Assembly (NCBI GenBank): GCA_021157815.1
Contig: JAGGVT010000005.1
Span: 1 to 19,962 of the forward strand
Origin: a bacterium
GTDB taxonomy: Bacteria > JAJVIF01 > JAGGVT01
Direction: 5' to 3'
Length of the DNA stretch: 19,962 nucleotides
Positions 10,194-13,838 of the stretch are shown here, one piece after another (position 1 is the stretch's first letter; every line of letters begins with the position of its first letter). The translations under genes were made by a program, and so were the position numbers. The notes under the pieces are model-generated. The model saw nothing but the letters and a program-made list of their open reading frames with translations. It was not told the origin of the DNA and searched no databases.

Positions 10194-10688
10194 TTATTTA
10201 ACAACCAGCACGACTAAATCCTCTTCGCCTGGATTCTCTATCTCAATTCGCTCGTTGGGAGATAGGGTTATGATGTCGTTTGTTGTGATTGAGATTTGGT
10301 TTGTAATCTCCTCGTTTTCGGGTTCATTATCATCCGACTCATCGGTGTGGTGGATTTCATAATCGCCGACAAGATTGCCTTTGCCGGACAGAACGACAAT
10401 CATCGCGGTTTTGTCGGGTGAATATTCCTCTGCTTTTTCATCCGGTTCAATTCTGATTGCACTAACAGAGAAACCATCCAAATCGAATGACTCCTCCAAA
10501 TTTTCAAGATCCAGAAGGTTAATAAGGTTTATTCCCAAGGTGTCATTTTCTGTTTCCTCAAGCGGCTCAATCTCGTACGGCACCTCCACAAATTTGCCTG
10601 ATTCCGCCCTGCATACCGGGCAGCGGTGAGGCGGTTTATCATTAATAAAGATATATCCACAAACTGCGCATTTGAATCTTGATGCCAT
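10194..10688 (-). CDS. Rubredoxin-cupin fusion protein
   Basis: This is a small cytoplasmic protein of 164 residues in two parts. Residues 5-36 form a rubredoxin-like knuckle of the kind found at the C-terminus of rubrerythrins, with Cys7, Cys10, Cys23 and Cys26 (FKCAVCGY and CPVCRA) able to bind one iron or zinc. Residues 68-164 look like a cupin barrel (FSVSAIRIEPDEKAEEYSP, IVVLSGKGNLV, DIITLSPNERIEIENPG). The H-x-H of metal-binding cupins is replaced (EEYSPDK), and an acidic D/E/N-rich insertion (about 114-130) interrupts the barrel. Non-metal cupins often have a sensing or structural role. A redox or metal-linked function is plausible but not shown. GAGG upstream of ATG 10688 supports the start. 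It is divergent from the aminotransferase. Confidence 0.75.
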   Translation of the reverse strand: MASRFKCAVCGYIFINDKPPHRCPVCRAESGKFVEVPYEIEPLEETENDTLGINLINLLDLENLEESFDLDGFSVSAIRIEPDEKAEEYSPDKTAMIVVLSGKGNLVGDYEIHHTDESDDNEPENEEITNQISITTNDIITLSPNERIEIENPGEEDLVVLVVK

Positions 10689-10712: not shown

Positions 10713-10732
10713 CCCGGCGAAGGGACGCCGGG
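10713..10732. repeat. GC-rich hairpin repeat upstream of the rubredoxin-cupin gene
   Basis: CCCGGCG (10713-10719), a six-base loop and CGCCGGG (10726-10732) form a perfect seven-base-pair stem. The T-run lies before the stem on the plus strand, so this is not a normal terminator in either direction. It sits 25 bases upstream of the rubredoxin-cupin start and next to the 8-bp tandem array. Confidence 0.6.
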
Positions 10733-10740
10733 TTACATCC

Positions 10741-10821
10741 TTACTAACTTACTAACCTGCTAACTTACTAACCTGCTAACTTACTAACCTACTAACTTAG
10801 CTAACATACTAACTTACTAAC
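10741..10821. repeat. 8-bp tandem repeat array A (YTRCTAAC), about 10 units
   Basis: Ten head-to-tail units fit the consensus YTRCTAAC. The commonest are TTACTAAC and CTGCTAAC, and one unit is nine bases long (10797-10805). Read on the minus strand the unit is GTTAGYAR, identical to array B on the far side of the aminotransferase gene, so the two arrays are inverted relative to each other. Every unit contains a stop triplet on each strand (TAA or TAG). With a period of eight, all three frames are closed on both strands. Confidence 0.9.
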
Positions 10822-10832
10822 CAATCATAAGA

Positions 10833-10838
10833 TATAAT
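10833..10838 (+). promoter_or_regulatory. Possible -10 box for the aminotransferase gene
   Basis: A perfect TATAAT sits just downstream of tandem array A and 59 bases before ATG 10898. No TTGACA-like -35 is found at 16-18 bases; that position falls inside the repeat array. If real, the array would touch the promoter and changes in its copy number could alter expression. Confidence 0.3.
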
Positions 10839-10897
10839 GAGGAGTATTAAAAGTAGTGAGATTTATTTATTAAGAAAGCAATCAGAAGGCGATGACT

Positions 10898-12151
10898 ATG
10901 AAACCGGAAGAATACAATTTGGAAATTACTCAGAAGTATATGGACTATATAAATCCCGGACTGACTCGATTAGTTGCGTTTATGGGATTCGACAAGGTGG
11001 AGGTATCCGCTGATGGTGCAATCATACGCGACAACCTCGGCAATGAATATATCGACTGCCTTGGCGGATTCGGAGTTTATTCGATTGGGCATCGGCATCC
11101 GAGAGTGATAAACGCGCTGAAAGATCAGCTCGATAAAATGGCGTTTCCATCAAAGGTGTTACTCAATGAACCGTTGGCGCTCCTTGCGGAAAAACTTGCT
11201 GACATTGCTCCCGGCGATTTGCAGTATTCATTTATGTGCAATTCAGGTACGGAGGCAACTGAGGGAGCGTTGAAACTGGCGCGAATTAAAACGGGCAAGC
11301 CCGGTGTGATATACGCGAGCAATTCATTCCACGGCAAGACACTTGGTTCGCTTTCTGTAACTGACAGGGAGAAATACCAAAAATCATCAAGGCCGCTTTT
11401 ACCGGATGTTAAAGTTGTTAAATTCGATGATGCCGATTCACTTGCCCGTGCAATCGATAGCGACACCGCTTGTTTTATCGTTGAACCAATACAAGGTGAG
11501 GGAGGAATTTATGTTCCGTCGGATGATTACCTTCCAAAGGTTCGTCAAATCTGCGATGATAAAAACATCCTTCTAATATTCGATGAGGTGCAGTCAGGAC
11601 TCGGCAGGGCAGGGAAGTTGTTCGCATCCAATCTGTGGAATGTCGCACCCGATATCATGACACTCGCAAAAGCGCTCGGAGGCGGAATCATGCCCATCGG
11701 CGCGATTATGGGCACCCGGGATGTCTGGTCGGCTTTCGAGGAAAATCCGCTCATTCACTCATCCACATTCGGCGGAAATGAACTCGCGGCAAGAGTCGCG
11801 CTGGAAACATTAAATGTAATTATCGATGAGGACCTGCCACGCCAATCGCGCGAAAAAGGCGAATGGCTAATCCCCAAACTCAGGGAGATTGCATCTCATT
11901 ATGATGATTTAGTTACTGAGGTTCGCGGAATGGGCTTGTTTATCGGTATCGAATTCAAGGACGACGACATCGGAAACCTATTCCTCAGCACACTGGCTGC
12001 CCGAAATGTAATAGTCGCTTTCACCCTCAATTCTCCAAAAGTAATACGAATCGAGCCACCGCTAATGATTCCAATGGAATATCTTGAAACTGTTCTGGAA
12101 CGCATTGAGGAATCGCTGAAAGAGGTTCGCACTATCATGGATAGTTTGTGA
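10898..12151 (+). CDS. Class III PLP-dependent aminotransferase (putrescine/acetylornithine type)
   Basis: This cytoplasmic enzyme moves an amino group from an omega-amine such as putrescine, ornithine or a diamine to a 2-oxo acid. The 417 residues contain the class III signatures. Numbered from this ATG they are GGFGVYSIGHRHP (56-68), the phosphate-binding SGTEA (116-120), NSFHGKTLGSLS, the EPIQGEGG motif, LIFDEVQSGLGR with Asp229 for the PLP nitrogen, Lys258 in LAKALGGG as the Schiff-base lysine, and STFGGN. Motif spacing is closest to putrescine/YgjG-like enzymes, but the substrate cannot be fixed from sequence. The start is ambiguous: ATG 10892 leaves only two bases after the Shine-Dalgarno GAAGG (10885-10889), whereas ATG 10898 leaves eight and is preferred. 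Tandem arrays of opposite orientation flank the gene. Confidence 0.92.
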   Translation: MKPEEYNLEITQKYMDYINPGLTRLVAFMGFDKVEVSADGAIIRDNLGNEYIDCLGGFGVYSIGHRHPRVINALKDQLDKMAFPSKVLLNEPLALLAEKLADIAPGDLQYSFMCNSGTEATEGALKLARIKTGKPGVIYASNSFHGKTLGSLSVTDREKYQKSSRPLLPDVKVVKFDDADSLARAIDSDTACFIVEPIQGEGGIYVPSDDYLPKVRQICDDKNILLIFDEVQSGLGRAGKLFASNLWNVAPDIMTLAKALGGGIMPIGAIMGTRDVWSAFEENPLIHSSTFGGNELAARVALETLNVIIDEDLPRQSREKGEWLIPKLREIASHYDDLVTEVRGMGLFIGIEFKDDDIGNLFLSTLAARNVIVAFTLNSPKVIRIEPPLMIPMEYLETVLERIEESLKEVRTIMDSL

Positions 12152-12154
12152 AGA

Positions 12155-12330
12155 GTTAGAAAGTTAGCAGGTTAGCAGGTTAGTAAGTTAGTAAGTTAGC
12201 AGGTTAGTAGGTTAGCAGGTTAGTAAGTTAGCAGGTTAGTAAGTTAGCAGGTTAGTAAGTTAGCAGGTTAGCAGGTTAGTAAGTTAGCAGGTTAGTAAGT
12301 TAGTAGGTTAGTAAGTTAGTAGGTTGGTAG
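12155..12330. repeat. 8-bp tandem repeat array B (GTTAGYAR), 22 units
   Basis: It begins three bases after the aminotransferase stop. Twenty-two consecutive 8-bp units run without a single insertion or deletion. Most are GTTAGCAG, GTTAGTAA or GTTAGTAG; the first (GTTAGAAA) and last (GTTGGTAG) are degenerate. It is the reverse complement of array A. Runs of alternating GTTAGCAG and GTTAGTAA make a partial 16-bp higher-order period. Confidence 0.93.
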
Positions 12331-12405
12331 GTTGAAAAACCGAATTGTCTAATAACACCATGCTTAAGTGTGGTGCTGTGAATATATCTGATGTACTGTA
12401 AAATC

Positions 12406-12446
12406 TGGGTGCCGCCCACACATCACGTCTTTTTGTGATATGTGGG
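12406..12446. repeat. Overlapping hairpins downstream of the aminotransferase
   Basis: CCCACACATCAC (12415-12426) pairs with GTGATATGTGGG (12435-12446) at 11 of 12 positions, plus one G-T, around an eight-base loop. An alternative stem pairs TGGGTG (12406-12411) with the first CCCACA (12415-12420), so the two folds exclude each other. There is no T-run after the stem. It may act as a weak terminator or 3' end stabiliser for the aminotransferase transcript, or be a dispersed repeat. Confidence 0.45.
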
Positions 12447-12464
12447 TGAAATGCTTAATTATTC

Positions 12465-12495
12465 AAATTAATTCGTACCGGGTACGAATTAATTT
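12465..12495. promoter_or_regulatory. 31-bp perfect palindrome, copy 1 (candidate operator)
   Basis: The left arm AAATTAATTCGTACC (12465-12479) is exactly mirrored by the right arm (12481-12495) around a single central G. A second copy lies about 130 bases downstream, closer to the DUF2089 gene. Long two-fold symmetry with an AT-rich flank and a GTACC core fits a dimeric repressor site, but no regulator is assigned. Confidence 0.6.
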
Positions 12496-12598: not shown

Positions 12599-12623
12599 TT
12601 AATTTGTACCGGGTACGAATTAA
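12599..12623. promoter_or_regulatory. 25-bp palindrome, copy 2 (candidate operator)
   Basis: TTAATTTGTACC, central G, GGTACGAATTAA: twelve-base arms with one mismatch, and otherwise the same as the core of copy 1. It ends 85 bases before the TTGACA of the putative DUF2089 promoter. Two near-identical copies in one intergenic region, and none seen elsewhere in the window, argue against chance. Confidence 0.6.
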
Positions 12624-12708
12624 TATTGAATATTTTAAGGCGGAAATGCATCCCGATTGATATATTTAAGCAAAAGGAAAATATATTGAATTTTATTCAA
12701 GAAAAGTC

Positions 12709-13391: not shown

Positions 13392-13838
13392 ATGAAAGAT
13401 GAAGTAATGAGAATTCTGAAAATGGTTGAGGACAGCAAAATCACCGCTGAGCAGGGAGCGAAACTGATTGAGGCTATCGAAACAGCTACGGCATCAAGCA
13501 GTTGGATTGATTTGAACGACCCTTCGACATACTCAGGTCCTTCGACAGACTCAGGACAGGCAGGCAAAAAGCCATCGTGGCTTTATATCATGGTTGATGG
13601 CGGTGAGCAGAGGCATGGACGCAAGAAAAGCGTTCGGGTCAGGATTCCTATCAAACTCGCGAAATGGGCTTTGAAATTTGTACCCAAAAGCGCTCACGCT
13701 GAAATGAGAAAGGAATTCGGAGAGGATTTCGATATCAGCCAGATAGGGGAAATTCTGGATGAACTACCTGTTGGCGAGGACCTTGTAAACGTTGTCGATT
13801 CCGAAGAGGGTGAAAACGTTCGCATCTTTCTTAGGTAA
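13392..13838 (+). CDS. SHOCT-like domain protein, partner of DUF2089
   Basis: This is a 148-residue protein with no signal or membrane segment. Residues 4-31 (ILKMVEDSKITAEQGAKLIEAI) are a SHOCT-like helical hairpin of the kind that precedes DUF4097-type or related regulatory domains. Residues 63-148 form a basic then acidic alpha/beta region (VRVRIPIKLAKWALKFVP, then LVNVVDSEEGENVRIFL) found after such hairpins in proteins of unknown function. A 16-residue segment, DPSTYSGPSTDSGQAG (43-58), is encoded by an 18-bp tandem repeat and looks like an inserted linker. GAGGT eight bases upstream supports the ATG. Tight spacing to the DUF2089 gene suggests a regulator and partner, possibly sensing or anti-regulator; this is inference. 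Confidence 0.72.
   Translation: MKDEVMRILKMVEDSKITAEQGAKLIEAIETATASSSWIDLNDPSTYSGPSTDSGQAGKKPSWLYIMVDGGEQRHGRKKSVRVRIPIKLAKWALKFVPKSAHAEMRKEFGEDFDISQIGEILDELPVGEDLVNVVDSEEGENVRIFLR
13521..13556. repeat. 18-bp tandem repeat inserted in frame in the SHOCT-like gene
   Basis: CCTTCGACATACTCAGGT (13521-13538) is followed directly by CCTTCGACAGACTCAGGA (13539-13556), with 16 of 18 identical, then CAGGCAGG. This resembles the TTCGACANNCTCAGG palindrome family that recurs between genes of many environmental bacteria. Here it lies inside a coding region without breaking the frame. Confidence 0.7.

Follow-up and report, generated by a model that had tools for sequence, protein, structure and literature searches.

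A polar family of GTTAGYAR tandem arrays at gene borders of a bacterial draft genome

The two arrays of the octamer GTTAGYAR that flank a class III aminotransferase gene are two copies of a lineage-specific, genome-wide polar repeat family and do not form a device for the aminotransferase gene alone. They were studied in a window of 19,962 nucleotides, which is one whole contig (C31) of a 3.2-Mb genome assembled in 221 contigs. On balance, the best reading is that of a polar tandem-repeat family, driven by slippage, mostly passive and tolerated at gene borders, and we consider it reasonably probable. Most of the arrays are probably near-neutral passengers rather than regulators of the aminotransferase.

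The two arrays in the window and the genome-wide family

A preliminary description of the window had reported an array A of ten units on the minus strand and an array B of 22 units on the plus strand. Both were confirmed by Tandem Repeats Finder, which gave for array A positions 10740-10821 with a period of 8, 10.1 copies and 2% indels, and for array B positions 12155-12333 with the same period, 22.4 copies and no indels (Table 1). Array A (81 bp) contains one 9-bp unit, which breaks its register once; in array B the 8-bp register is unbroken over the 22 units. The TGA of the aminotransferase gene ends at 12151 and array B begins 3 bases beyond, exactly as described, whereas the distance between array A and the ATG (10892) is 70 bases and not the 76 given before. 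The 5' end of array A points towards the aminotransferase gene and its 3' end towards the gene with the rubredoxin-like domain. Every unit has a stop on each strand, TAG on one and TAA on its complement, and with a period of eight all frames are closed on both strands, in agreement with the preliminary description. The aminotransferase protein is intact through its C-terminus. A search of the window against Rfam gave zero matches.

Table 1. Arrays, genes and neighbouring repeats in the window
Feature	Position	Strand	Remarks
Gene with N-terminal rubredoxin-like domain (PF21349)	10194..10688	-	array A lies in its leader, 52 bases upstream of the start
REP-like hairpin CCCGGCGTCCCTTCGCCGGG	10713..10732	-	dispersed family; 3' side of array A
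Array A, 10 GTTAGYAR units, 8 exact	10741..10821	-	Tandem Repeats Finder and unit reading
Class III aminotransferase gene (PF00202), putrescine/acetylornithine aminotransferase-like	10892..12151	+	between arrays A and B
Array B, 22 GTTAGYAR units, 20 exact, and terminal GTT	12155..12333	+	Tandem Repeats Finder and unit reading
Hairpin-like AACACCATGCTTAAGTGTGGTGC	12354..12376	+	3' side of array B
Dispersed repeat beginning with TGGGTGCCGCCCACACATCACG	12406..12454	+	3' side of array B
Near-perfect 31-base palindrome AAATTAATTCGTACCGGGTACGAATTAATTT	12465..12495		downstream of array B; more copies in the genome
Second, degenerate copy of the palindrome	~12600..12628
18-bp tandem repeat CCTTCGACAGACTCAGGT	13521..13555		within the coding sequence of a SHOCT-like DUF2089-C protein

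About 30 copies of the REP-like hairpin next to array A were matched in the first 1.17-Mb sample of the genome, and hairpins of the kind that follows array B were found after other arrays of the same genome too. Such elements are common here: approximately 55% of random 100-base intergenic pieces are repetitive, with many REP-like hairpins and other dispersed families, and the genome carries nine genes for Y1_Tnp (RAYT-type) transposases.

To determine the extent of the family, a sample of 1.45 Mb (45% of the genome) was fetched, and arrays were counted from at least three units. The sample contained 64 arrays of 3-41 units (median 15.5), but exact lengths may be wrong, since the assembly is a draft and the ends of the fetched stretches hold more than their share of arrays (17 of the 64 lie within 300 bases of an end, compared with 5% of the bases), some of these ends being artificial cuts. 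In the whole genome, exact 24-mers of the unit occur 658 times in forward and 779 times in reverse orientation; the sample holds 658 of these 1437, from which we estimate about 140 arrays genome-wide. When up to two mismatches were allowed, 890 + 1101 matches were obtained, and a reversed control pattern gave 0, which excludes chance as the source of the arrays. Of the preliminary suggestions, that of a repeat-family footprint was thus borne out. Exact 24-mers were absent from 58 other genomes, three of them of the same class, and no period-8 arrays were found in sampled contigs of same-class relatives. Among the short-period arrays of the sample (Tandem Repeats Finder, periods 5 to 9) 49 of 52 have period 8, and the period-8 members listed are all GTTAGYAR; a few period-12 arrays, of 2 to 4 copies each, were also seen. 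None of the 64 arrays lies within a called gene. Isolated units are not in excess (observed versus expected 14 vs 13.4, 18 vs 22.6, 10 vs 14.7 and 5 vs 6.5).

Outside this genome, a search with a 69-base pattern detected arrays in a dozen or so unrelated bacteria. Most of them were Pseudoalteromonas, with pure GTTAGCAA; the others included Marinomonas, Veillonella, Proteiniphilum, Desulfosporosinus and Moorena. In the Proteiniphilum contig (L040:4063-4414) two different octamer arrays, (GTTAGTAG)n and (AATCAGCT)n, adjoin each other. Neither the 16-mers nor octameric or octanucleotide repeats were matched by a literature search.

Polarity, array edges and stop codons

Genes were called in the draft genome by a simple codon model trained on its own long ORFs. 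In 42 of the 45 arrays for which both neighbours were known, the 5' end of the GTTAG strand was nearer to a gene than the 3' end (p=9e-10), the median distance to the gene being 6 bp at the 5' end and 224 bp at the 3' end. Between genes of the same direction this applied to 22/22 sense and 5/6 antisense arrays, between convergent genes to 6/6 and between divergent genes to 7/10 (counts that precede a slight adjustment for stop codons lying far within arrays). The polarity rule therefore holds independently of the direction in which the neighbour is transcribed. In all six spacers that hold two arrays, the 5' ends face outward; a tandem composite of array and hairpin at one prophage locus was kept separate in this count. 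An array begins at a stop codon or a terminator or, where the gene is divergent, about 50-120 bases ahead of it; 20 arrays face the start side of their nearest gene. The 3' ends run out into intergenic space with many dispersed repeats. A random scatter without relation to genes, which the preliminary description had named as evidence against itself, is contradicted by the orientation of the arrays and of the outward pairs. The same rule explains the inverted bracket around the aminotransferase gene, because the 5' ends of both arrays face the nearest gene; the bracketing is no special arrangement.

The edges of the arrays are also regular. The phase of the first unit is fixed, the G of GTTAG being its first base, and an oligopurine stretch precedes it: at least five of the six bases before the array are purines in 74% of the arrays, compared with 13% of random intergenic 6-mers, and no purine bias was seen after ordinary stop codons. 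At the other end, 41 of 61 arrays close with GTT after the last unit. Dispersed repeats were found in 49/59 of the 3' flanks and in 4/59 of the 5' flanks (random intergenic 100-mers, 82/150), a contrast that is partly due to the 5' flank being gene sequence.

Most units belong to four variants, which differ in the last three positions (CAG, TAA, CAA or TAG). Adjacent units are identical less often than expected (0.243 vs 0.367, z -7.1 at lag 1), and identity is above expectation for units two and four apart (z 3.5 and 3.8). The avoidance of identity between neighbours is the opposite of simple one-unit slippage; taken together, the deficit at lag 1 and the excess at lags 2 and 4 point to 16-bp steps or to the loss of perfect neighbours. 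Unit words common to different arrays do not exceed third-order Markov simulations, and the arrays are thus not recent copies of each other. For this reason we reject copying of the arrays from one another, and the inverted copies, which the preliminary description had suggested a repeat family might seed, do not look like the products of one array seeding another.

Among the sense arrays located behind a gene, 32 of 38 begin between -21 and +13 bases from its stop codon, and in 18 of the 38 the stop codon lies within the array, at offsets of -5 (11 arrays), -13 (4), -21 (2) and -8 (1). The offsets -5, -13 and -21 represent the three frames of entry into the repeat. Three further arrays begin directly after an intrinsic terminator. 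Of the earlier proposal that the arrays act as a translation barrier, the core stood, as shown by these stops in all three frames. Among the genes next to arrays are hydF and those for a transketolase, NADH dehydrogenase and kinases. Where an array ends the protein, the C-terminal domain is complete: the match to the transketolase model reaches position 625 out of 627 and that of HydF 391 out of 392, and GGDEF and MscS proteins that end in arrays are complete as well; damage to coding sequences by the arrays was therefore rejected. Taking into account the offsets of the stops and the completeness of the domains, these observations show that the arrays abut the functional edge of the gene and can take over its stop codon. 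That they press on or replace stop codons without damage to the protein may be ascribed to the units stopping every frame.

Copy-number change and the origin of the arrays

Changes in length were visible between two strains. An IMG/VR contig (L031) matches contig C167 of the genome at 99% identity or more (about 99.5%) over its length and carries prophage-like head genes. Two of the five arrays differ between the two contigs, with 6 vs 11 and 10 vs 25 units (numbers taken from draft assemblies, probably of short reads). In both cases the flanks are unchanged and the extra 5 and 15 whole units are internal, which shows that length changes by whole units inside the array while its flanks stay fixed. 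Growth restricted to the gene-facing end is not supported by this comparison. The stretch L031:1-11642, filed as a 'virus' contig, is a near-identical copy of a genome stretch with prophage-like portal, protease and capsid genes, all three of which are ended by GTTAGYAR arrays, and at one locus shared with C167 a 96-bp array-plus-hairpin unit is repeated in tandem.

Array length also varies in Pseudoalteromonas. At one orthologous site, beside what we take to be a ribosome hibernation factor gene, six genomes carry 2, 9, 18, 19, 19 and at least 10 units, the last in a contig that ends inside the array. The 5' flanks of the six array-bearing genomes are 91-97% alike at this site, and four more distant genomes have no array there. 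On the 3' side, identity falls to 0.39 in one genome, where the flank resembles that of another array locus. In these contigs (L193-L202) the 3' side of the arrays holds more word-like repeats and an array of a GACGGCT heptamer, and a 3' sequence of about 100 bases is common to several arrays with different 5' flanks, as if array and 3' sequence had moved together. The strain and species comparisons agree with the preliminary description, in which the arrays were suspected of being prone to slippage, and copy number changes in 8-bp steps between the strains as well as between Pseudoalteromonas species.

On the reading that we favour, arrays would be born at proto-sites consisting of purines followed by GTT. 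Slippage or unequal recombination would then lengthen and shorten them, for the most part by 8 or 16 bp at a time, and they would survive because no frame on either strand can be translated through a unit. Neither the polarity nor the constant phase of the two ends is accounted for by slippage alone. Moreover, if slippage were the only process, neighbouring units should be identical, yet they differ more than by chance.

Several other explanations were weighed. The arrays could be functional RNA elements of 3' ends and leaders, whose long imperfect hairpins block 3' exonucleases, end transcription or stop readthrough. The sense-strand RNA of array B folds better than dinucleotide shuffles (z -5.9), with GUUAGY pairing to itself through G-U wobble, and little folding is seen in the antisense strand of array A; the start of most sense arrays at a stop codon and the closure of all frames by each unit would also fit. 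We nevertheless regard this role as unlikely, for when the bases of the unit are rearranged, 13-34% of the resulting units equal or surpass GTTAGYAR in folding, the folding strand would be antisense to the nearest gene in the 20 arrays on its start side, the three arrays at intrinsic terminators begin after and not before them, and relatives lack arrays. Extension outward from DNA 3' ends at gene borders, by telomere-like addition, end-joining or synthesis primed by transcript ends, would leave the 5' end fixed and the 3' end free. It would accommodate the strict polarity and the outward pairs, the 5' phase fixed after an oligopurine, the unique 5' and repetitive 3' flanks, the flanks of some Pseudoalteromonas loci, which are stable on the 5' side and labile on the 3' side, and the lack of a common unit order. 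However, uniqueness is expected of 5' flanks that are mostly coding, growth between the two strains was internal with both ends unchanged, and neither a reverse transcriptase (PF00078) nor Ku was found in the genome, which is 91% complete. A telomerase-like origin and Ku end joining were accordingly rejected as specific routes, and outward extension as a whole appears improbable.

Spreading of the arrays within a mobile or composite element, mobilized by RAYT-type (Y1) transposases together with REP hairpins, is very unlikely in our judgement. The nine Y1_Tnp genes, the REP-like hairpins with GTAG/GTAA that often follow arrays, the tandem 96-bp composite, and the recurrence of a Pseudoalteromonas array with its 3' sequence behind different 5' flanks all speak for it. 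Against this, the 3' partners come from many unrelated repeat families or are missing, about 55% of random intergenic 100-mers are repetitive anyway, and the arrays have neither a common 5' flank nor a common unit order. The nine transposases may account for the REP-like hairpins, but not obviously for the arrays. The least probable of the explanations is that the arrays are protein binding sites or a polar DNA signal of the Chi or KOPS type: although the GTTAG core is conserved, with variation largely at two positions, and polarity is nearly uniform (42/45), isolated units occur at the expected rate, in contrast to Chi or KOPS, and relatives of the same class lack arrays. A Chi- or KOPS-like signal was rejected on the ground that singletons are not enriched.

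Comparison with known repeat systems

The closest known kind is that of the intergenic STRR-type heptamers. STRRs of filamentous cyanobacteria are degenerate short intergenic tandem repeats with a seven-base unit. GTTAGYAR arrays likewise consist of degenerate tandem units at many intergenic sites and vary by whole units between close relatives (6 vs 11 and 10 vs 25 between the strains, 2-19 in Pseudoalteromonas), but their period is 8, and the STRRs are cyanobacterial and of other sequence.

Oriented repeats at gene borders are known from Xanthomonas (GGGAATC) and Nostoc (GGGGA(C/T)T), where abundant intergenic heptamer arrays occur genome-wide on both strands and are discussed as quadruplexes (PMC4692102). 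They lie 0-50 bp downstream of stop codons if on the coding strand or upstream of start codons if on the non-coding one, some overlap stop codons, their length varies among relatives, they occur as single arrays and inverted pairs, and they are described there as unlinked to gene function. In both these heptamers and GTTAGYAR (42/45) the repeat strand turns its 5' end to the gene, whatever the direction of the ORF. The heptamers have G-tracts and are quadruplex-capable, whereas in the eight-base GTTAGYAR no more than two G are adjacent, where one unit meets the next, and there is thus no tract of three or more. Quadruplexes therefore cannot explain a polarity that is common to both families. 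The fixed end phase and the oligopurine start are features of GTTAGYAR that the available part of the same source does not describe for the G-rich heptamers.

TAACTGA heptamers were described by MacGregor in Beggiatoaceae, Cyanobacteria and Bacteroidetes, with about 170 sets in one genome, mostly of 2-6 copies, many singletons, and most sets ending just upstream of start codons (PMC4679880). Apart from the seven-base unit they resemble GTTAGYAR in being patchy over unrelated phyla, oriented, near gene borders, stop-bearing and without a known mobile element, and if read on the complementary strand (TCAGTTA) their gene-facing end is again the 5' end.

The (GTTAGCAA)n arrays of Pseudoalteromonas have the same unit, lie at most loci with their 5' end near gene ends or terminators, and vary in copy number at orthologous sites. 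They differ from those of the present genome in that they are few per genome, almost pure GTTAGCAA and without the terminal GTT rule. They are probably of independent origin, because same-class relatives of the genome studied here lack the repeat. REP/BIME elements are palindromic hairpin units tied to RAYT, whereas GTTAGYAR is no DNA palindrome and the REP-like hairpins are its separate neighbours. Phase-variation repeats lie in contingency genes or at their promoters and switch the reading frame or the promoter spacing, and no GTTAGYAR array is inside a called gene, the neighbours being such genes as hydF and those for transketolase; telomere-like repeats call for a genomic reverse transcriptase, for which the 91% complete genome has no PF00078 match; and the over-representation of isolated copies that characterizes Chi and KOPS is not seen here, observed and expected numbers being about equal.

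The polarity described here, found at 42 of 45 sites, belongs to an unrelated lineage and to a unit that lacks G-tracts, and its start signature is sharp. Quadruplexes are therefore not a sufficient explanation, and polarity becomes a testable question across all bacterial short tandem arrays. It is conceivable, though rather unlikely, that such polarity is general, one defined strand running 5'->3' away from the gene border whatever the unit, because an unrecognised process (e.g. 3'-end-primed synthesis and joining) builds arrays outward from fixed starts. GTTAGYAR would then be the clearest case, with its fixed end phase, oligopurine starts and outward pairs and no quadruplex potential. GTTAGYAR is in any case a repeat with stops in all frames that is able to replace stop codons without visible damage to proteins. 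The kind of repeat is known; the form it takes in this family is an octamer that lacks G-tracts and shows strict polarity, fixed ends and the frequent takeover of stop codons.
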